NCBI RefSeq assembly: GCF_024436035.1
Contig: NZ_JANFNG010000001.1
Coordinates: forward strand, 327,689 to 391,688
Direction of reading: 5' to 3'
Length of the DNA: 64,000 nt
Source: Streptomyces humicola
GTDB taxonomy: Bacteria; Actinomycetota; Actinomycetes; Streptomycetales; Streptomycetaceae
The translations under genes and the position numbers were made by a program. The first letter of the stretch is position 1. Each line of letters opens with the position of its first letter. Under the pieces are notes generated by a model. It made no database searches and had not been told where the DNA came from. It saw nothing but the letters and a program-made list of their open reading frames with translations. This document shows positions 13,093 to 22,604 of this stretch, one piece after another.

Positions 13093-13389
13093 GCTGCGGC
13101 CGCGGCGCCGCGGCGCGGCGACACACCGACGCGCAGACCAGTGGCCTGCGTGGCCGGTATCGCTGCCAGGCTGGCCTTCCCTGTCTTGGCCGGGTCGTCC
13201 GGAGCACGGTCGGCCTTGACGAGCTCGACTGTCCGGCAACGGAGTTCCGGTGCGCTCTGCGCCGTTTGATGGGTGGGAGTTGCCGACAGAGTGATCTCCC
13301 GGGCGTGGCTCGGGCTCATGTGCGGGGCCAGGGGCGATCCTCCCGGTGGCTTGCCGTCTGTGTTGCTCAGGGTGACGGGGAGGATCGGG

Positions 13390-15126
13390 ATGCGCATTCT
13401 GCTGATCGCGAGCGCGTTCAACAGCTTGACTCAGCGGGTCTTCGCCGAACTTGCTGACCGCGGACACACGGTGGCGGTGGAGCTGGCTCTGGGGGACGAA
13501 GCGTTGTGCACTGCCGTGGATCGGTACTCCCCTGACCTGATCATCGCGCCGATGCTGACGACCGCGATCCCGAGTGATGTCTGGTCGGAGCACACCTGCT
13601 TGATCGTCCACCCGGGACCGCCGGGCGATAGGGGACCGTCGTCACTGGACTGGGCGATTCGCGACGGCATCACCGAATGGGGCGTGACGGTCCTTCAGGC
13701 CGTCGCCGAGATGGACGCGGGGGACGTGTGGGCATCGGTTTCATGCCGATTGCCGCAGGTCGGGAAGAGTGATCTGTACCGGGGCGAGATCGCCGACGCG
13801 GCATGCGAGGCTGTGCTCCTCGCTGTGCAGCGGTACGCCTCGGGTTCGTACGTGCCCCGATCGCAAAGGAGCCTGGGCACGGAGATCCCGATCCGTGTCC
13901 GGCCGTACTTCGACCAGAGCCTCCGGCGCATTGACTGGTCGTCGGACTCCACCGAGACCGTGCTGCGCAAGCTGCGGGAAGCCGACTCGCAACCGGGCGT
14001 GCTGGACACGCTCCTCGGCGACGAGTGGTATCTGCATGGCGGCTTCCCGGAGGACACCCTGCGCGGGCGTCCGGGGGAACTCGTGGCGACCCGGGCGGGT
14101 GCGGTCTGCCGGGCGACGGTGGACGGCGCGGTGTGGATTCCCCAGCTGAGGCCCAGGCGTCGGCCCGGTGGGCCGGCGGGGATCAAGCTTCCGGCCGTCC
14201 TCGCCCTTGGCGATCTCCTGCCGCCGCTGCCTGAGGAACCCGCGCCCTTGTGGCTGCCGGGACAGCGGCACACCTGGGCGGACATGCGGTACCAGGAGCT
14301 CGGCGAAGTCGGCTTCCTTCGCTTCTCCTTCCCCGGCGGGGCGATGAGCACCACTCACTGTCAGCGCCTCCTCGACGCGTACCGCTATGCGTGTTCCCGG
14401 CCCACCTCCGTACTGGTGCTCGGCGGCGTCAGGGATTTCTTCTCCAACGGCATTCATCTGGGAGTGATCGAGGCGGCCGCCGACCCGGCCGAGGAGTCAT
14501 GGGCCAACATCACGGCGATGGACGATCTCGTCGAGGCGGTCCTGACCACCCCCGATCGGCTGGTGGTCGCCGCGCTCGGCGGCAATGCGGCGGCCGGCGG
14601 TGTGATGCTGGCCCTCGCCGCGGACGAGGTGTGGTGCGCAGAAGGCGTCGTGCTCAACCCGCACTACCGGCTGATGGGGCTGTACGGTTCGGAGTACTGG
14701 ACCTACACGCTGCCCCGCAGGGTGGGACGGGGTGCAGCGGATCGGCTGACGCAGCGCGCCCTGCCGGTGACGGCGGTGAAGGCCCGCGACCTCGGTCTCG
14801 TAGACCGTGTGGTGCGCTGCGGGCCGCAGGGCTTCGAGGCCGAGGTGGAGCGGCTGGCCTCCGCTGCGGCCGCGGCGCCGCGGGTCCAGCGGCGCATTGC
14901 CGAGAAGAAGGCGCTGCGGGAGCGGGATGAGGCCGCCAAGCCACTGCGCGCCTATCGCGACGAGGAACTTGCCCGGATGCGCCGGATCTTCTCCGATCCG
15001 CAGGAGCCCTACCACCGCCTGCGCAGGGCCTTCGCCCGCAAGGAGCGGCCCTCGTGCACTCCTCGGCATCTGCGTGGCGCAGGGGCGGAGTCCGCCGTCA
15101 CCGGATTGGTCCCGCCCGACGCGTAG
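13390..15126 (+). CDS. hypX: hydrogenase maturation protein HypX (CO-ligand synthesis)
   Basis: Two-domain enzyme of 578 residues. The N-terminal half is formyltransferase-like with the signature HPGPPGDRGPSSLDW (74-88); the C-terminal half is enoyl-CoA-hydratase-like with GGVRDFFSNGIHL, GGNAAAGGVMLALAADEVW and NPHYRLMGLYGSEYW. In known HypX, the formyl group of N10-formyl-tetrahydrofolate passes through formyl-CoA and is released as CO, the ligand of the hydrogenase iron under air. The start has GGAGG six bases before the ATG. It stands 78 bases before hhyS on the same strand and likely leads the operon. Its presence fits an enzyme made aerobically. Confidence 0.93.
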   Translation: MRILLIASAFNSLTQRVFAELADRGHTVAVELALGDEALCTAVDRYSPDLIIAPMLTTAIPSDVWSEHTCLIVHPGPPGDRGPSSLDWAIRDGITEWGVTVLQAVAEMDAGDVWASVSCRLPQVGKSDLYRGEIADAACEAVLLAVQRYASGSYVPRSQRSLGTEIPIRVRPYFDQSLRRIDWSSDSTETVLRKLREADSQPGVLDTLLGDEWYLHGGFPEDTLRGRPGELVATRAGAVCRATVDGAVWIPQLRPRRRPGGPAGIKLPAVLALGDLLPPLPEEPAPLWLPGQRHTWADMRYQELGEVGFLRFSFPGGAMSTTHCQRLLDAYRYACSRPTSVLVLGGVRDFFSNGIHLGVIEAAADPAEESWANITAMDDLVEAVLTTPDRLVVAALGGNAAAGGVMLALAADEVWCAEGVVLNPHYRLMGLYGSEYWTYTLPRRVGRGAADRLTQRALPVTAVKARDLGLVDRVVRCGPQGFEAEVERLASAAAAAPRVQRRIAEKKALRERDEAAKPLRAYRDEELARMRRIFSDPQEPYHRLRRAFARKERPSCTPRHLRGAGAESAVTGLVPPDA

Positions 15127-15204: not shown

Positions 15205-16287
15205 ATGAGTGCAGCAACGGCTGTCGATGAAGGCCATGGGCGGGGGCAGGCGGGCGAAGAGCCTCCTCTCGTCCATCTCCTGTGGATCAATGCGGGCTTG
15301 AGCTGCGATGGCGATTCGGTGTCGTTGACGAACGCGATGCAGCCGAGCATCGAGGAGATCGCGCTGGGTGCGCTGCCTGGACTACCAAGGGTGGCGGTGC
15401 ACTGGCCGCTGATCGACTTCGAGTGCGGTCCCGTGCAGGGCGCGGACACATTCATCGAGTGGTTCTTCAAGGGGGAGCGCGGCGAGATCGATCCGTTCGT
15501 GCTCGTCATCGAGGGTTCCATCCCGAACGAGAAGATCAAGGCGGAAGGGTACTGGTGCGGTTTCGGTGACGATCCCGACACCGGCCAGCCCATTACCACC
15601 AGCGAGTGGATCGACCGCCTGGCGCCCAAGGCCGTCGCCGTCGTCGCGGCCGGGACGTGCGCTACGTACGGTGGCATTCACGCGATGGCCGGGAATCCGA
15701 CCGGTGCCATGGGCGTGCCCGACTACCTCGGCTGGGACTGGAAGTCCACGGCCGGCCTGCCGGTGGTGTGCGTGCCCGGCTGCCCTATCCAGCCGGACAA
15801 CCTCTCCGAGACGCTCACCTACCTGCTCTACCAGCTCACCGGGGCCGCGCCGATGATTCCACTGGACGACAAGCTGCGGCCGGCCTGGCTGTTCGGCGCG
15901 ACGGTGCACGAGGGCTGTGACCGGGCGGGCTATTACGAGCAGGGCCAGTTCGCTGAGGACTACAACTCGCCGCAGTGCCTGGTGAAGGTCGGCTGCTGGG
16001 GTCCCGTGGTCAAGTGCAATGTGCCCAAGCGCGGCTGGATGAACGGTATCGGCGGCTGCCCCAATGTCGGCGGGATCTGTATCGCCTGCACGATGCCTGG
16101 CTTTCCCGACAAGTTCATGCCGTTCATGGACGCGCCGCCCGGAAGCAAGGTCTCCAGCACGGTCAGTCACTCGTACGGCGGTGTGATGCGAAAGTTGCGC
16201 TCGATCACCGCAAGCACCGTGGACAAGGAGCCGAAGTGGCGTCACACCGGGCGCCGGATCACGACCGGGTACCGGCCGCCGTGGTGA
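15205..16287 (+). CDS. hhyS: [NiFe]-hydrogenase small subunit, group 1h (high affinity)
   Basis: Electron-transfer subunit of the actinobacterial high-affinity H2-uptake hydrogenase, 360 residues. It carries the Fe-S clusters that take electrons from the active site. Cys-rich parts: GLSCDGDSV near residue 32, AAGTCATYGG, VCVPGCPIQPDN, then HEGCDRAGYY, CLVKVGCWGPVVKCN and GGCPNVGGICIACTMPGFPD. At the proximal cluster the usual CxxC reads C34-x-x-D37; Asp ligation is known for group 1h. No Tat signal peptide is present, so the enzyme is expected on the cytoplasmic side. Ribosome site CGGAGG is close to the ATG. It is followed 99 bases later by hhyL. Confidence 0.97.
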   Translation: MSAATAVDEGHGRGQAGEEPPLVHLLWINAGLSCDGDSVSLTNAMQPSIEEIALGALPGLPRVAVHWPLIDFECGPVQGADTFIEWFFKGERGEIDPFVLVIEGSIPNEKIKAEGYWCGFGDDPDTGQPITTSEWIDRLAPKAVAVVAAGTCATYGGIHAMAGNPTGAMGVPDYLGWDWKSTAGLPVVCVPGCPIQPDNLSETLTYLLYQLTGAAPMIPLDDKLRPAWLFGATVHEGCDRAGYYEQGQFAEDYNSPQCLVKVGCWGPVVKCNVPKRGWMNGIGGCPNVGGICIACTMPGFPDKFMPFMDAPPGSKVSSTVSHSYGGVMRKLRSITASTVDKEPKWRHTGRRITTGYRPPW

Positions 16288-16386: not shown

Positions 16387-18171
16387 ATGGCTCCGACGAA
16401 GACAGTGGCCGGTGACGGCAGCGGCCTGGTGGAGATGTCCTGGGATCCGATCACCCGGATCGTGGGGAGCCTGGGCATTCACACGAAGATCGACTTCAAG
16501 CAGAAGCGCGTCGCCGAGTGCTACAGCACCTCGTCAGTGTTCCGTGGCTACAGCGTGTTCATGCGCGGCAAGGACCCCCGGGACGCGCACTTCATCACCA
16601 GCAGGATCTGCGGAATCTGCGGTGACAACCACGCCACCTGTTCGGTCTACACGCAGAACATGGCCTACGGCGTGAAGCCTCCTCACCTGGGTGAGTGGAT
16701 CATCAACCTGGGCGAGTCCGCAGAGTACATGTTCGACCACAACATCTTCCAGGAAAACCTGGTCGGGGTCGACTACTGCGAGAAGATGGTGCGGGAGACC
16801 AACCCCGGCGTGCTGGAACAGGCCGAACGGACCGAGGCGCCGCACGCGGGGGAGCACGGCTACCGCACGATCGCCGACATCATGCGCTCCCTCAACCCGC
16901 TCGAGGGCGAGTTCTACCGGGAGGCCCTGCAGGTCAGCCGCTACACCCGGGAGATGTTCTGCCTGATGGAGGGACGCCACGTGCACCCCTCCACGCTCTA
17001 CCCGGGTGGGGTCGGTACGGTCGCCTCGGTCCAGCTGTTCACCGACTATCTCAGCCGGCTGATGCGGTACGTGGAGTTCATGAAGCGGGTGGTTCCGCTC
17101 CATGACGACCTGTTCGACTTCTTCTACCAGGCGATGCCCGGATACGAGGAGGTCGGGCGGCGGCGGGTGCTGTTGGGCTGCTGGGGAAGCATGAACGATC
17201 CCGACCACTGTGACTTCACCTACCGGAACATGTCCGACTGGGGCCGGAGGATGTTCGTCACCCCGGGCATCATCGTCGACGGCAAGCTGGTCACCAACGA
17301 CCTGACCGAGATCAACCTGGGGATCCGGATCCTGCTGGGCAGTTCCTACTACGACGACTGGGAGGGGCAGGAGCTGTTCGTACCGCACGACCCCCTCGGC
17401 AATCCGGTGGACCCACGCCACCCGTGGAATCAGCACACCATTCCCGCCCCCCAGAAGCGCGACTTCGACGGCAAGTACAGCTGGGTGATGTCGCCGCGCT
17501 GGTTCGACGGCACGGACCACCTGGCGCTGGACACCGGCGGCGGCCCGCTGGCCCGCCTGTGGTCCACCGCGCTGAACGGCCTGGTCGACATCGGCTACAT
17601 CAAGGCCACAGGGAACAGCGTGGTCATCAACCTCCCGCGGTCGATGACCAAGCCCGAAACCACCTTCGAGTGGAAGATCCCGCAGTGGAGCAACGCCATT
17701 GAGCGCAACCGCGCGCGCACCTACTTCCAGGCCTACAGCGCCGCCATGGCGCTGTACTTCGCAGAGAAGGCCCTGGAGGAGGTACGTGCCGGCCGCACCC
17801 AGACCTGGGAGAAGTTCGAGGTGCCGGACGAGAGCATCGGCTGCGGATTCAGCGAGGCCGTGCGCGGTGTGCTCTCCCATCACATGGTGATCCGTGACGG
17901 GAAGATCGCCAACTACCACCCGTACCCGCCCACCCCCTGGAACGCCAGCGTCCGCGACAGTTACGGGACTCCCGGCCCGTACGAGGATGCCGTGCAGAAC
18001 ACCCCGATCTTCGAGGAAAATCCGCCGGAGAACTTCAAGGGCATCGACATCATGCGCACCGTGCGCAGCTTCGACCCCTGCCTGCCGTGCGGCGTCCACA
18101 TGTATCTCGGGGGCGGCAGGTCGATGCAGACGATGCATGTTCCCACCGGGCTGAGCGGTCTGGCCGGATGA
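16387..18171 (+). CDS. hhyL: [NiFe]-hydrogenase large subunit, group 1h (high affinity)
   Basis: Catalytic subunit oxidising H2, 594 residues. Nickel ligands are in RICGICGDNH (73-82; Cys75 and Cys78) and DPCLPCGVHM (563-572; Cys565 and Cys568). About 23 residues follow the His571 region, the expected C-terminal peptide removed by the maturation protease encoded at 21473. Inserts such as FVPHDPLGNPVDPRHPW are long and typical of group 1h. An in-frame TTG eight codons earlier is an alternative start; ATG 16387 was preferred. The stop overlaps the next start (ATGA). The enzyme is expected to scavenge trace H2 and feed the respiratory chain, as in starved or sporulating actinobacteria. Confidence 0.97.
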   Translation: MAPTKTVAGDGSGLVEMSWDPITRIVGSLGIHTKIDFKQKRVAECYSTSSVFRGYSVFMRGKDPRDAHFITSRICGICGDNHATCSVYTQNMAYGVKPPHLGEWIINLGESAEYMFDHNIFQENLVGVDYCEKMVRETNPGVLEQAERTEAPHAGEHGYRTIADIMRSLNPLEGEFYREALQVSRYTREMFCLMEGRHVHPSTLYPGGVGTVASVQLFTDYLSRLMRYVEFMKRVVPLHDDLFDFFYQAMPGYEEVGRRRVLLGCWGSMNDPDHCDFTYRNMSDWGRRMFVTPGIIVDGKLVTNDLTEINLGIRILLGSSYYDDWEGQELFVPHDPLGNPVDPRHPWNQHTIPAPQKRDFDGKYSWVMSPRWFDGTDHLALDTGGGPLARLWSTALNGLVDIGYIKATGNSVVINLPRSMTKPETTFEWKIPQWSNAIERNRARTYFQAYSAAMALYFAEKALEEVRAGRTQTWEKFEVPDESIGCGFSEAVRGVLSHHMVIRDGKIANYHPYPPTPWNASVRDSYGTPGPYEDAVQNTPIFEENPPENFKGIDIMRTVRSFDPCLPCGVHMYLGGGRSMQTMHVPTGLSGLAG

Positions 18172-18740
18172 GCCCGGAGCAGACCGCGCGACGTCTTGAG
18201 GAGATCCTCGACCGCCTGTCCGAGACGGGCGACCCTGCGACGGTCGCAGCCGCCAACGAACTGGTGCGCGTGCTGATGGACTTCTACGGCGCGGGCCTGG
18301 CTCGGATCGTCGACCTGATCACCGGGCATCGAACCCGTGGCGAAGACGACCGGCTGCTGGCGGAAGTGCTCGATGACGAGTTGCTCGCGGGCTTTCTGGT
18401 ACTGCATGGTCTGCACCCGCAGGACACCATGACCCGGATCGCGCGGGCCCTGGACGCCACTCCGGGACGGCCCTTCGAGACCGTCGGCTTCGACGCCGAA
18501 TCCGGCACCTTGCGGCTGCGCCGGGCCGTGGGCTCCGGCTCGGGCTGCGGCTGTCAGAAGACCGCGCAGGCGGCACGGGAGAAGGCCGAGGCCGCTCTTG
18601 CCTGTCTGGCGCCGGAGGTAACCGAGGTACGTCTCGACCAGGAGGATGCCGCCGGCCCCGAGCCGGTTCTGCTGCAGATCGCCTCCGGGCCGCCCCGCCG
18701 GGGTACGGCAGCAGACGCCGCCCCCACGGAGTGTTCGTGA
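18168..18740 (+). CDS. hydrogenase-linked protein, weakly NifU-like
   Basis: 190 residues, of unknown function. The N-terminal half is helical (TARRLEEILDRLSE, AANELVRVLMDFYGAGLARIVDLI) and resembles a short regulatory or scaffold domain. The C-terminal half (about 100-165) resembles the NifU C-terminal domain, but its Cys motif reads SGSGCGCQK rather than CxxC, so cluster binding is uncertain. It overlaps hhyL by ATGA and the next gene by GTGA, so its level is tied to the hydrogenase. A role in Fe-S loading of HhyS is a reasonable guess. Such genes recur behind hhyL in Streptomyces, from memory. Confidence 0.65.
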   Translation: MSPEQTARRLEEILDRLSETGDPATVAAANELVRVLMDFYGAGLARIVDLITGHRTRGEDDRLLAEVLDDELLAGFLVLHGLHPQDTMTRIARALDATPGRPFETVGFDAESGTLRLRRAVGSGSGCGCQKTAQAAREKAEAALACLAPEVTEVRLDQEDAAGPEPVLLQIASGPPRRGTAADAAPTECS

Positions 18741-19390
18741 GCACTCGTCAGGAAACGCCGGTGTTGGGCATCACCCGGCTTCGCCGCTTTCTCGCGCCCG
18801 CGCCCGCCGAGCCCGAGCGGTGCGAGCTGTGCGGACAGCGCCTCACGGAGGACCACCGGCACGTGGTGGACACCGAACACCGCGCGCTGGCCTGCGCATG
18901 CACCCCCTGCGCTCTGCTGTTCGCCACGCCAGGGGCCGGCCACGGCCGGTTCCGCACCGTTCCCGACCGGTGCCTCGCCGATCCCTCGGATCAGGGTCTG
19001 CGCGACGACGTCTGGGAGAGGCTGCAGATTCCGGTCAGCGTCGCGTTCTTCTTCCGTAACGCGGCGCTCGACCGACTTGTGGCGATCTATCCGAGCCCGG
19101 CGGGTCCCACCGAGAGCGAGCTGGATCCAGCCGTTTGGCAGTCCGTCCTCGGTGACAACACCCTCGCCAGGCTTCTCGAACCGGATGTCGAGGCGCTGCT
19201 GGTGCACCGCGACGGCGACCGCACCGAGTGTTTCCTGGTGCCGATCGACGACTGCTACGAGCTCATCGGCCGCATGCGCCTGCACTGGAAGGGCTTCGAC
19301 GGCGGTGCCGCGGCGCGGGCCGACCTGGCCACCTTCTTCCACGACCTCAGACAGCAGGCCCGCACACCGGGGAAGGATGAACGGCCGTGA
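18737..19390 (+). CDS. hydrogenase-operon protein, DUF5947-like
   Basis: 217 residues. It opens with two Cys pairs, CELC (near 30-33) and CACTPC (near 56-61), which may hold zinc or an Fe-S cluster. The rest is mixed alpha/beta (VSVAFFFRN, VEALLVHRDG, CFLVPIDDCYELIGRMRLHWKGFDGG). GTG at 18737 is the start because it overlaps the previous stop as GTGA; an in-frame GTG lies two codons earlier. I recall this as DUF5947, found with group 1h hydrogenases; the function is unknown. The C-terminus overlaps the next start by GTGA. Confidence 0.7.
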   Translation: MSTRQETPVLGITRLRRFLAPAPAEPERCELCGQRLTEDHRHVVDTEHRALACACTPCALLFATPGAGHGRFRTVPDRCLADPSDQGLRDDVWERLQIPVSVAFFFRNAALDRLVAIYPSPAGPTESELDPAVWQSVLGDNTLARLLEPDVEALLVHRDGDRTECFLVPIDDCYELIGRMRLHWKGFDGGAAARADLATFFHDLRQQARTPGKDERP

Positions 19391-20058
19391 CGGAGTTGAG
19401 TTTTTCCTGCACCGACGTGCGAGCCGACCCGTACGCCGCCGGTCCCACACTGATCTTCCGCCTGCGGATCACCGCAGCCGCACCCGACCGCGTCCACGCG
19501 CTCGCCCTGCGCTGCCAGATCCGCATCGAACCTGCGCGCCGCCGCTACGAACCGGCCGAAGCCGACCGACTCGGCGACCTCTTCGGCGACCGCTCCCGCT
19601 GGGGCCACACCCTCCACCCTCTGCAGTTCGCCCACGCCTCCCTCGTCGTCCCCGGCTTCACCGGCCATACCGAGACCGACCTTGCGGTCCCCTGCACCTA
19701 CGACATGGACATCTCCTCGGCCCGCTACTTGCGGGCGCTGGATGACGGCGAGGTACCGCTGCTCCTGCTCTTCTCCGGCACGGCCTTCACCGGCGAGGGC
19801 GGCTTCCGGGCCGAGCCGGTGCCCTGGGACCGGGAGGCCGCCTTCCGGATGCCGGTGCGGGTCTGGCGCGAGATGATCGAGCAGCACTTCCCCGGATGCG
19901 GCTGGATCCGCCTGGACCGCGGCACCATGGACGCGCTGCTGGAGTACCGCTCCCGCAACGCGCTTCCGTCCTGGGAAGAGACCGTTCGGGCACTGCTGCG
20001 ATCGGCCGATCCGCCAGTCGCCACCCCCTCGCCGGGCGCAGGGGGGATCGCGCCATGA
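19387..20058 (+). CDS. hydrogenase-operon protein, DUF6084-like
   Basis: 223 residues, no signal peptide, no membrane segment. It begins LSFSCTDVRADPYAAGPTL and is beta-rich, with a C-terminal part (WREMIEQHFPGCGWIRLD, LEYRSRNALPSWEETVRAL) that is helical. I recall the family as DUF6084, seen only beside actinobacterial hydrogenases; that needs a profile check. Start GTG and stop both overlap neighbours by four bases. No catalytic motif is visible, so a structural or assembly role is more likely than an enzymatic one. Confidence 0.68.
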   Translation: MTELSFSCTDVRADPYAAGPTLIFRLRITAAAPDRVHALALRCQIRIEPARRRYEPAEADRLGDLFGDRSRWGHTLHPLQFAHASLVVPGFTGHTETDLAVPCTYDMDISSARYLRALDDGEVPLLLLFSGTAFTGEGGFRAEPVPWDREAAFRMPVRVWREMIEQHFPGCGWIRLDRGTMDALLEYRSRNALPSWEETVRALLRSADPPVATPSPGAGGIAP

Positions 20059-21476
20059 CAGCGGCCGCGCGCGCCGAAGGACCCGCCCTCCCGTCGACCC
20101 CGGACATGGAGTCGCGTTTCACCGTGGCACGACAGGTCGCGGACGCCGTTTTGTTCGAGGGATACGTCCTCTATCCGTACCGGGCATCGGCGGCCAAGAA
20201 CCAGCTGCGCTGGCAGTTCGGAGTACTCGTACCACCGTCCTGGGCCTCGAGCGGCGCCGAGCACTCCTCCCAGCGCACCGAGTGCCTGATGGAACCGCGC
20301 GCCGGAGCGGCCCTCAGCGTCGAGCTGCGCTTTCTGCGCGCGCAGCGGCGAACCGTCCAACGGGCCCTCGGTGACGGCACATTCGAGACGGTCGCGGAGC
20401 TGGATGTGGCCGATCGGGTCCTCGTCCCCTGGGTCGAGGGCGTCGAGGAACGGATTGCGCTGACGGTTCCGGTCGCCGACCTGGTCGCGCATGGCGTCGA
20501 GGTGCCGTTCTCGCGCCCCGCTCACCAGGAGACCGAGAGCGTGGTCGACGCGGATCGGACGGTCGGCCGACTCCTGCGGGCGCGCGAACGGGCCGACGGC
20601 GTGCTCCGGCTGTCGGCGACCGAGATCGACGGCCCGTACGCCGCCCTGCGACTGACCGCCGTGGTCGAGAACACCAGCGGCTGGTCGCCTGAGGGCGGCG
20701 AGGCGGACCGCGATGCCGCCCTGCTGCGTTCGCTGGTCTCGGCCCACCTCCTCCTCGGTTTGAGTGCGGGATCCTTCCTGTCGATGGCCGACCCGCCCGA
20801 ATGGGCGAGGAGCGCCGCGTCCGCCTGCAGCAACGAGCACACCTGGCCCGTCCTGGCCGGGGAGTCCGGTGGGGCGAATGTGATCCTTTCCTCGCCCATC
20901 ATCCTGGAGGACCATCCGCGCATCGCACCTGAGAGCCCCGGCGCCCTGTATGACGCCACCGAGATCGACGAGATCCTCACCCTGCGCACGGCGGCCCTCA
21001 CCGAGCAGGAGAAGCGGGAGGCACGTGGCACCGACCCGCGGGCCGGGGCCGTCATCGACCTCGCCGAATCCCTCCCCGCCGAGGTGCTCGAACGGCTGCA
21101 CGGCGCGGTGCGCTCCCTGCGCAGTGTCACCGGCCCAGCACCGGCGGAGGGTCCGGGTGACCGTCCGGCCCAGCCGTGGTGGGATCCCGCGGCAGACCCG
21201 GGCGTCGACCCGACTCGCGACCGGATCGCGGTCGACGGTCACTCGGTCGGCGCCGGCAGCCGGGTACGGCTGCGCCCCGGGGCCCGGCGTACCGATGCCC
21301 AGGACCTGTTCCTGACCGGCCGCACGGCACTCGTCGAAGCCGTGCTCCACGACGTCGACGGCGCCGTGCATCTCGCAGTGACGGTGGACGGCGACCCCGG
21401 CGCCGACCTGCGGCGCGAGCAGGGCCGCTTCCTGTACTTCCAGCCCGACGAAATCGAACCGCTGGAGGACGCATGA
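20055..21476 (+). CDS. hydrogenase-operon protein of unknown function, 473 residues
   Basis: Large soluble protein without a recognised domain. The N-terminal third has a clear pattern (FEGYVLYPYRASAAKNQ, WQFGVLVPPSWA, QRTECLMEP) that suggests a conserved beta domain. The middle is rich in short strands (ALRLTAVVENTSGW). A helical stretch follows (EIDEILTLRTAALTEQEK), then a C-terminal beta domain (GSRVRLRPGARRTDAQDLFL, GRTALVEAVLHDVDGAVHL) ending LYFQPDEIEPL. The ATG overlaps the previous stop. Its ending and position before the maturation protease suggest a hydrogenase-specific assembly factor or an electron-acceptor adaptor. This is inference. Confidence 0.65.
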   Translation: MTAAARAEGPALPSTPDMESRFTVARQVADAVLFEGYVLYPYRASAAKNQLRWQFGVLVPPSWASSGAEHSSQRTECLMEPRAGAALSVELRFLRAQRRTVQRALGDGTFETVAELDVADRVLVPWVEGVEERIALTVPVADLVAHGVEVPFSRPAHQETESVVDADRTVGRLLRARERADGVLRLSATEIDGPYAALRLTAVVENTSGWSPEGGEADRDAALLRSLVSAHLLLGLSAGSFLSMADPPEWARSAASACSNEHTWPVLAGESGGANVILSSPIILEDHPRIAPESPGALYDATEIDEILTLRTAALTEQEKREARGTDPRAGAVIDLAESLPAEVLERLHGAVRSLRSVTGPAPAEGPGDRPAQPWWDPAADPGVDPTRDRIAVDGHSVGAGSRVRLRPGARRTDAQDLFLTGRTALVEAVLHDVDGAVHLAVTVDGDPGADLRREQGRFLYFQPDEIEPLEDA

Positions 21477-22024
21477 ACTCCACTGGCCGTGACCTCGGCC
21501 AAGGGCATCGCACACTCGTCGCCGGAGTGGGCAACATCTTCCTCGGCGACGACGGCTTCGGCGTCGAAGTCGTGCGTCGGCTGGCGTCCCAGCCGCTCCC
21601 CGACGACGTCGAGGTCGTGGACAGCGGCGTGCGCGGGGTTCACCTCGCCTACCAACTCCTCGACGGCTACGAGACGGCGGTGCTGGTCGATGCGACCTCC
21701 CGCGGCGCGGCGCCGGGAACGATTCACCTGATCGACGCCTCGGCACGGCCGCCACGCGGTGACGCGCCCGCTCCCGTGGCGCCGGACGGGCACCACATGA
21801 CCCCGGACGCGGTGCTCGCGCTGCTGGAGACGCTGCGCAACAGCGCCGGCGGCACCGGTCCGCGGCGTGTGCTGGTCGTCGGATGCGAACCGGCGAGTGT
21901 GGAAGAAGGCATCGGGCTCAGCGAGCCGGTCGCCGCTGTCGTGGACGAGGCGGTGCGATGCGTCCTGAGCGTCGTACGGGACGAGGCATGCCACGCATGC
22001 CCAGAAGGGATCAGCGAACCATGA
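21473..22024 (+). CDS. hydrogenase maturation protease (HycI/HupD family)
   Basis: Endopeptidase that trims the C-terminal peptide of the hydrogenase large subunit after nickel insertion, 183 residues. It opens with the family motif GVGNIFLGDDGFGVEVVRRL; the Asp and nearby Glu bind nickel. Further signs are VVDSGVRGVHLAYQLLDGY and the His of DGHHMTPDAVL. It ends with a Cys-rich tail (CHACPEG), unusual for the family. The start overlaps the previous gene and the stop overlaps the next (both ATGA). The substrate is expected to be HhyL. Confidence 0.92.
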   Translation: MNSTGRDLGQGHRTLVAGVGNIFLGDDGFGVEVVRRLASQPLPDDVEVVDSGVRGVHLAYQLLDGYETAVLVDATSRGAAPGTIHLIDASARPPRGDAPAPVAPDGHHMTPDAVLALLETLRNSAGGTGPRRVLVVGCEPASVEEGIGLSEPVAAVVDEAVRCVLSVVRDEACHACPEGISEP

Positions 22025-22125
22025 AGAAATTCTGCGTCACGGCGGTCGTCGCGGCGGTGCTCGCCGCCGTCATCGTTCCCAACATCGCGGACATCAAGCG
22101 GTACCTGCGTATCCGGTCCATGTAG
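22021..22125 (+). CDS. 34-residue membrane microprotein (DUF6893-like)
   Basis: Begins MKKFCVTAVVAAVLAAVIVP: a short basic start, one Cys and one hydrophobic helix of about 17 residues, then a charged tail (DIKRYLRIRSM). The ATG overlaps the stop of the protease gene as ATGA, strong support for real translation. Small proteins of this type are known in actinobacterial genomes under DUF6893, from memory. It could anchor the hydrogenase or an accessory protein to the membrane, since neither HhyS nor HhyL has a membrane segment. That role is inferred only from position and shape. Confidence 0.7.
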   Translation: MKKFCVTAVVAAVLAAVIVPNIADIKRYLRIRSM

Positions 22126-22214: not shown

Positions 22215-22604
22215 ATGCACGAGATGTCAGTAGCCCTGGCCGTCGTGGAACAGGTGGAGGAAGCGGCACGCGCAGCCGGTGCGGCCGGGGTCCGTCAGGT
22301 GCGGCTCCAGGTCGGCGAACTTGCCGGTGTGGTGCCGGACGCGCTGCACTTCTGCTTCGAACTCGCCTGCGCAGGGACCCTCCTGGAGGGGGCCGAGCTG
22401 GTGGCCGAGCCTGTATCCGCCCGCGCACGCTGCGATGCCTGTGGTGCCGAATGGGCGACGGGCATGCCGCCGCAGCTGTGCTGTCCGCGGTGCGACGCTC
22501 CGGCGGCCGGATTGCTGTGCGGACGTGAGCTGCACATTGCCGGGGTGCGCTGGCACGAGGACGTCAAGCACGCAGTGCCCGTACCCGTCCCCGAGGAAGG
22601 CTGA
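22215..22604 (+). CDS. hypA: hydrogenase nickel chaperone HypA
   Basis: Nickel-binding metallochaperone that delivers Ni to the large subunit with HypB, 129 residues. The start MHEMS holds the conserved His2 nickel ligand, which is why ATG 22215 is used and not earlier in-frame starts. The zinc loop is CDAC near residue 74 and CPRC near 93. The stop lies 4 bases before hypB. The gap of about 90 bases from the microprotein gene is the only non-overlapping spot in this part of the operon. Confidence 0.95.
   Translation: MHEMSVALAVVEQVEEAARAAGAAGVRQVRLQVGELAGVVPDALHFCFELACAGTLLEGAELVAEPVSARARCDACGAEWATGMPPQLCCPRCDAPAAGLLCGRELHIAGVRWHEDVKHAVPVPVPEEG

Follow-up and report, generated by a model that had tools for sequence, protein, structure and literature searches.

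A putative accessory gene module of group 1h [NiFe]-hydrogenase, with a candidate membrane-anchoring microprotein

Background

Much of the atmospheric H2 taken up by soils is believed to be consumed by high-affinity [NiFe]-hydrogenases (PMC7174314). This paper concerns a block of genes between hhyL, encoding the large subunit of such an enzyme, and hypA in a 64,000-nucleotide stretch of the Streptomyces humicola genome (assembly GCF_024436035.1, contig NZ_JANFNG010000001.1, positions 327,689 to 391,688 of the forward strand), hereafter the window. The closest described system is on plasmid pHG1 of Cupriavidus necator, where the large-subunit gene is followed by the same genes in unchanged order, PHG066-PHG070; PHG066-69 are reported as four open reading frames (ORFs) of unknown function (PMC4377017). 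Similar entries are four hypothetical proteins in the 1h cluster of Rhodococcus equi (PMC13332983), four coding sequences of unknown function in methanotrophs (PMC12319191), and perhaps hhaABC of Thermomicrobium, also of unknown function (PMC6776052). The soluble genes of the block are thus mostly known already as genes without a function.

Group 1d hydrogenases have cytochrome b membrane subunits, named HoxZ and HyaC. The role of these subunits in anchoring a hydrogenase (PMC6883350) is like the one proposed below for a 34-residue microprotein encoded at the end of the block, but the microprotein is single-span and its window copy has no histidine. The same job, linking a soluble hydrogenase to the membrane, is done in the group 2a enzyme Huc by the membrane stalk HucM (PMC10017518); HucM has 188 residues and forms a coiled-coil tube, whereas the microprotein has one hydrophobic stretch and no long coiled-coil. 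As for group 1h, the relevant passage of a 2026 paper describes the enzymes as membrane-associated, with the anchoring subunit not identified (PMC13332983). In Methylacidiphilum membrane association is reported to accompany high affinity (PMC7174314), and other hypothetical membrane proteins are mentioned there.

The microprotein belongs to DUF6893 (PF21833), a family without assigned function that is here tied to one hydrogenase subgroup. It is unnamed in the published passages on PHG066-PHG070, hhaABC and other 1h clusters, and where C. necator pHG1 and Methylocystis parvus carry it, the PLSDB gene tables, which are incomplete, show no feature. Among the matches listed from open-licence PMC full text, the microprotein was not found, DUF5947 and DUF6893 were named in no paper, and DUF6084 was named only in one on aurodox biosynthesis.

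Here we suggest that the block is a 1h accessory module made up of assembly factors and a membrane tether, a reading that we hold tentatively, at a little under even probability. HhyE, DUF5947, DUF6084, a 473-residue protein and a protease would be cytosolic assembly factors for HhySL, the protease step following from its family. The microprotein would be the tether: its hydrophobic stretch would span the membrane, and its positively charged C-terminal tail would face the cytoplasm and dock the otherwise soluble HhySL, putting the hydrogenase where electrons can enter the quinone pool. Block genes may also be required for making the 1h enzyme in another host.

Results and discussion

The block tracks group 1h hydrogenase

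Both subunits assign the window's hydrogenase, on sequence grounds, to group 1h. The nearest solved structure to its HhyS is HofK, a C. necator protein. Its HhyL falls on the 1h side of the branch (100*) that separates seven other-group sequences in a tree, and its CxxC pairs (RICGIC and DPCLPC) are invariant in a five-sequence alignment. ORF reading placed six plus-strand genes between hhyL and hypA (Table 1).

The original prediction had proposed profiling these genes against 1h hhyL, and we searched 217 Actinomycetota genomes with profiles of HhyL, DUF5947, DUF6084 and the 473-residue family. A HhyL match of at least 65% identity, our call for group 1h, was present in 26 genomes, in three of them (G184, G028, G107; G and L numbers are our handles for genomes and loci) as fragments only. 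Far from being absent from most 1h loci, DUF5947 was found in 23, DUF6084 in 22 and the 473-residue family in 23 of the 26. Outside them DUF5947 occurred in one genome and the other two families in two, these being the drafts G189 and G216, in which 1h hhyL was not found. None of the three occurred in the eight genomes with other hydrogenases only (36-46% identity, probably group 2a), or in ten loci fetched around other hydrogenases, seven of which have a HhyE/HucE-like gene. In Actinomycetota, then, the block genes track 1h hhyL and not other hydrogenases; outside that phylum the distribution is drawn from papers and from the Cupriavidus and Methylocystis plasmid records. The order hhyL-nifU-DUF5947-DUF6084-473 is common to C. 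necator, Mycobacterium intracellulare and Methylocystis, and 78 of 98 records have it as fetched; the remainder are mostly minus-strand or cut loci. From its distribution, the block appears to be a conserved accessory module dedicated to group 1h. The earlier suggestion of high-affinity-specific assembly or electron-transfer factors stands as regards 1h specificity in Actinomycetota; it had listed the microprotein without singling it out.

In one clade, of S. cattleyicolor type (L005, L098, L099, L144-L148, L151), DUF6084 was not seen and the 473-residue gene is upstream of hhyL. Loci of this type have a similar 68-residue soluble protein between DUF5947 and the microprotein (L098 9991-10194; L005 12967-13170).

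A microprotein with a free hydrophobic stretch and a fixed tail

The microprotein looks new and is testable, and is to us the most interesting part of the block. Of the 217 genomes, 22 have a PF21833 match, and 17 of these also carry 1h HhyL. The other five are G189 and G216, where the block is present; G195, with the order protease-microprotein-hypF (neighbours partly by eye); G150; and G214, where the match lies inside a large ORF and is likely due to chance. G150, which has no 1h hhyL, carries the microprotein by a truncated hhyS-like ORF and hypC/hypF-like genes (L133 8281-8909), probably a decayed 1h locus; this genome shares its genus code with G038 and G096.

In a second sample, 296 genomes of the class that partly overlap the 217, PF21833 was found in 48, 1h HhyL in 55 and both in 45 (Fisher p 1.1e-39, with genomes treated as independent though related). 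In 43 of these 45, PF21833 lies on the same contig and strand as hhyL, 1562-4640 bases downstream. Copies were also detected, by motif or with our own profiles, in seven of the ten Pfam-negative 1h genomes (G277, G361, G290, G405, G439, G128, G171) and accepted on motif and position. The microprotein therefore follows 1h hhyL in 52 of 55 genomes with diverged copies included, and in 45 by Pfam alone; the three without a copy are G182, G107 (hhyL fragment) and G351. In G182 (L142 8907-10166) the end of the 473-residue gene, the protease and the microprotein are gone and the 473-residue gene abuts hypA, so that the hydrogenase is probably not matured.

With an iterated profile, 106 of 143 records yielded short copies, 108 in all. 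These include 78 of 80 Streptomycetaceae loci (the best 80 of 554 from a scan of genome contigs, all of this family), C. necator and M. intracellulare; Methylocystis was added by motif search. The ten other-group loci (L119-L125, L130-L132; probably group 2a) gave no copy.

Among the 108 copies, which are not independent and were collected by profile, the tail is nearly invariant. Counted from the C-terminus, all 108 have Arg-Tyr at -8/-7, 102 have Asp at -11, 97 have Pro at -12 and 106 end in Met, the consensus being P-D-[ILV]-x-R-Y-L-x-[IM]-x-x-M (PDIRRYLRIRxM-type); parts of it are missing from the diverged copies in L005, L098, L099 and L145. Over 80 Streptomycetaceae copies (uncorrected Nei-Gojobori) the ratio of nonsynonymous to synonymous polymorphism, pN/pS, is 0.39 for the last 12 codons and 1.04 for the hydrophobic part. 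Given these ratios and the near-invariant tail, the hydrophobic stretch seems to need only hydrophobicity, the tail being a fixed peptide. The window copy has a predicted membrane segment, with a hydropathy of 2.45 across 19 residues, and 102 of 108 copies reach at least 1.6 across 17 residues. Because the tail carries more positive charge than the N-terminal end (95 of 108 copies, with a tie in nine), it is predicted to be cytoplasmic. A tether that docks through a peptide would be expected to have such a free stretch and fixed tail; the pattern also fits a regulator or a maturation adaptor.

Is an anchor needed? No membrane segment is predicted in HhyS, HhyL or the other block proteins, which leaves the microprotein's as the only one in the block. 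Nor was a clear segment present in any HhyS examined, including those of loci without the microprotein, the highest hydropathy being 1.86 for an internal stretch in L101 and L102. Since the published accounts cited above supply no anchoring subunit either, a separate anchor would be called for. We propose that the DUF6893 microprotein is the group 1h membrane anchor, its tail docking HhySL and so giving both membrane position and affinity for atmospheric H2; we rate this as somewhat less likely than not. If true, an anchor subunit of about 34 residues would be easily missed by gene callers. A conserved peptide of defined position and sequence makes the question of 1h membrane attachment testable.

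Several observations weigh against the reading of the block as assembly factors plus a tether. C. necator carries the microprotein gene but its 1h enzyme is described as cytoplasmic and low-affinity (PMC7174314), which disfavours a simple anchor; one could speculate that the peptide is lost during purification or that its expression is low. No copy was found in L100 and L102, which are deep-branching 1h loci, or in G351 (L144); L101, on the same deep branch, also gave none, but this locus stops at a contig edge. Of the seven extra copies, two are weak (G405 and G439, E 0.03-0.7 with our two profiles) and two more were first spotted by eye (G128, G171). No catalytic fold appears among the matches listed for the soluble proteins, which fits scaffolds without proving them. 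Finally, the microprotein adjoins the protease gene in Streptomycetaceae, and the extra copies by hyp genes with no 1h structural gene nearby (L135, L138) fit maturation.

These last two observations would suit a membrane-side maturation adaptor, which would recruit the protease, HypC/HypF or nickel delivery to the membrane during assembly without being a subunit of the mature hydrogenase. In Streptomycetaceae the microprotein gene starts inside the protease gene or soon after it, and extra copies have hypF/hypC-like genes as neighbours in L135 and L138 and a HypC-like one in L105 and L137 (judged by eye); of the further copies in Table 1, three are beside HypC-like or hypF-like genes (by eye) and one is in an unrelated-looking setting. 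Yet in four rearranged loci (L146, L147, L148, L151), where the 473-residue gene and the protease are upstream of hhyL, the microprotein is still downstream, at the hhyL-hhyE-DUF5947 end, and it is therefore not just a partner of the protease. The lack of a copy in the ten other-group loci also speaks against an adaptor, an argument tempered by a report that group 2a clusters can carry HycI and HypF too (PMC12319191). We consider the adaptor unlikely.

HhyE lacks both metal sites in many loci

By sequence, the nifU-like gene of the window can be assigned to the HhyE family as a truncated member. Its product has no Pfam match by itself at E 1; 26 of 32 HhyE relatives match PF01106 (NifU) at E 0.1, and the family profile matches NifU structures in the PDB at E 7e-24 and Rieske ferredoxins at 7e-9, so that its description as weakly NifU-like holds at the family level. 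Asp70, His80, Pro84 and Arg90 are invariant over 32 sequences and the NifU CxxC is variable (the alignment leaves out L092 and L115). HhyE of M. smegmatis (MSMEG_2718) is a putative iron-sulfur protein with NifU and Rieske-like parts, and at the family level is homologous to the window copy in its N-terminal and NifU-like parts, as judged from mycobacterial and other relatives. Unlike it, the window copy has CGC in place of the NifU CxxC and lacks the C-terminal CxxC...CxxC metal domain. Neither motif is present in the C. necator protein.

Of 34 HhyE proteins 19 have the CxxC and the C-terminal domain, 13 have neither, and two have the CxxC alone (L100 and L115, the L115 ORF running off its contig). 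On a quick HhyL tree the CxxC changes at least four times, in the main Streptomyces clade, the cattleyicolor type, the proteobacterial pair and L106; we infer that these are losses. The C-terminal domain shows six changes on this tree to the CxxC's four. In six independent pairs that differ in the C-terminal domain, the CxxC differs in the same way in four and does not differ in two, so that joint loss is not significant (sign test p 0.125). The repeated joint absence of the two sites looks new. We also considered that the nifU-like and DUF5947 genes might be two halves of HhyE, and rejected this as M. intracellulare has both separately, a 301-residue NifU protein with the C-terminal CxxC domain plus a separate DUF5947.

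Could the whole block, with the microprotein, be an electron-transfer branch, in which HhyE and DUF5947 pass electrons from HhyS to a membrane partner? HhyE of many species has the NifU CxxC and a Rieske-like domain, and seven Cys/His positions are kept in DUF5947: C53, C55 and C58 are invariant, and C29, C32, H40 and H42 occur in at least 90% of 34 sequences, a possible zinc or iron site. Islam 2019 is reported to favour HhyE as the acceptor, with the PHG067 homologue MSMEG_2717 as a candidate. Against this, because both metal sites are jointly absent in 13 of 34 relatives, and the CxxC changes as often as it does, HhyE cannot be a universal electron carrier, and an iron-sulfur role for it cannot be general for 1h enzymes; the joint absence removes HhyE from the list of universal electron acceptors. 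Moreover, the HhyE homologue of M. smegmatis is required for Hhy activity, and without it activity staining with an artificial acceptor is reported to be gone as well (PMC6883350). We therefore judge an electron-transfer branch decidedly unlikely. The need for HhyE even with an artificial acceptor, together with its non-universal metal sites, speaks for the conserved N-terminal domain acting in assembly, as the accessory-module reading would have it. According to a passage in print, hhyE is absent from Methylacidiphilum.

The claim that none of the block genes has a known role agrees with the ORFs of unknown function in print, but fails for HhyE, given the M. smegmatis requirement, and for the protease, which is an ordinary hydrogenase maturation protease.

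DUF5947, DUF6084 and the 473-residue protein

The proteins first described as DUF5947-like and DUF6084-like are both full family members by the Pfam cut-offs. The AlphaFold model of DUF6084 (mean predicted local distance difference test score, pLDDT, 91.3) is a beta-rich domain with C-terminal helices. Its best match in a fold search (Z 7.9) is, by the tool's own yardstick, perhaps just a common arrangement. Foldseek gave 20 matches at E <=0.001; with query-normalised TM-scores of 0.19-0.34, we do not regard them as relatives.

The 473-residue protein has no Pfam match by itself at E 1 and no Foldseek match at E <=0.001. Its model (mean pLDDT 81.1) has an N-terminal part weakly like part of DrmA (Z 10.9, root-mean-square deviation 4.5 over 181 residues, the match coming from two entries for a single protein) and an SH3-like C-terminal part resembling PetP (Z 7.6 and 6.8) and the nitrile hydratase beta subunit (5.3 to 6.1); in the f17 genomes this SH3-like domain is a separate ORF. 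The alignment of this family leaves out L092 and L101, and the structure models leave out L001-L005. Searching PDB sequences with the DUF5947, DUF6084 and 473-residue profiles gave no match below E 0.2. No known hydrogenase chaperone fold is among the matches listed, which excludes nothing.

In the four rearranged loci the 473-residue gene and the protease are upstream of hhyL together, with 8-86 bases between profile matches; in L005, L144 and L145 the two are not together. That the gene stays with the protease in the four loci suggests that the 473-residue protein may act on the large subunit before cleavage.

It is also conceivable that the soluble proteins serve a large Hhy complex as structural subunits, in the way that HucM does in Huc; their beta-rich folds with no obvious enzyme match would suit this. 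Set against it, the C. necator enzyme has a solved structure (5aa5, HofK chain), which we take to hold only the small and large subunits, and DUF6084 is absent from one 1h clade. HhyE is reported to co-localise with HhyS and HhyL on native gels (cited in PMC6883350), a point in favour. We consider structural subunits very unlikely, and prefer to see these proteins as candidate assembly factors.

Gene overlaps

The window coordinates confirm a 4-base overlap at every junction among the six genes: each of the six junctions from hhyL to the microprotein is an NTGA overlap, and the microprotein-hypA junction is a gap. In Streptomycetaceae the first five junctions from hhyL have 4-base overlaps in 69/77, 72/77, 79/81, 75/81 and 78/82 loci, and in non-Streptomycetaceae loci the same five have them in 3/35, 26/34, 23/35, 25/36 and 12/25 (in these counts some loci are one place fetched twice). 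The hhyL-hhyE overlap is thus a Streptomycetaceae feature. Overlaps had been taken to imply fixed stoichiometry with HhyL; this is not supported, since a 4-base overlap suggests coupled translation at most, not a fixed product ratio, and the one between hhyL and hhyE is not conserved outside the family.

Table 1. Features of the window and of comparison loci (L numbers precede positions in other records)
Feature	Position	Strand	Evidence or remark
hypX-like	13273..15126	+	Pfam PF00551, PF02911, PF00378: formyl transferase and enoyl-CoA hydratase domains
hhyS, putative group 1h small subunit	15205..16287	+	Top PDB match HofK 5aa5_A, E 9.6e-165
hhyL, putative group 1h large subunit	16387..18171	+	PF00374; 74-90% identity to four 1h-type cluster relatives
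Truncated hhyE (NifU-like, 190 residues)	18168..18740	+	Asp70, His80, Pro84, Arg90 kept
DUF5947 (217 residues)	18737..19390	+	PF19372 E 3.7e-72, 242.1 bits (cut-off 25)
DUF6084 (223 residues)	19387..20058	+	PF19562 E 3.7e-96, 321.2 bits (cut-off 25)
473-residue protein	20055..21476	+	Outside Pfam; N-terminal beta-rich and C-terminal SH3-like domain
HycI/HyaD-type hydrogenase maturation protease	21473..22024	+	PF01750 2.3e-13; TIGR00072 2e-33, 115.4 bits (cut-off 47.45)
34-residue membrane microprotein DUF6893, C-terminal end PNIADIKRYLRIRSM	22021..22125	+	PF21833 E 6.8e-12, 45.7 bits (cut-off 24.6)
hypA	22215..22604	+	TIGR00100 88.1 bits, precisely at cut-off
HypE-labelled gene at HhyS position	L001 4963-6018		
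HypE-labelled gene at HhyS position	L002 3571-4626		
HypE-labelled gene at HhyS position	L003 3946-5025		
HypE-labelled gene at HhyS position	L004 2817-3905		
Further microprotein copy	L105 1045-1143		
Further microprotein copy	L137 2152-2250		
Further microprotein copy	L138 6862-6972		
Further microprotein copy	L136 2460-2561		

Neighbouring genes and other observations

The first gene of Table 1, which we call hypX-like, lies upstream of hhyS and outside the overlapping run. In S. avermitilis hypX is named and is reported to be expressed as a separate operon (PMC4767420). Residues 1-40 of the window HhyS contain no RR. Four plasmid records carry the label 'hydrogenase expression protein HypE' on the gene at the HhyS position preceding hhyL, likely a misannotation.

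The 1h cluster on the M. intracellulare plasmid is followed by nuoA-G genes (L002 11582-16615). In Streptacidiphilus sp. 4-A2 (L071 6320-10153) hhyL and DUF5947 are split into several frames, perhaps by sequencing errors. The window's own genome has a second PF00374 match, on contig C36 (9858-11066, E 5.6e-13).

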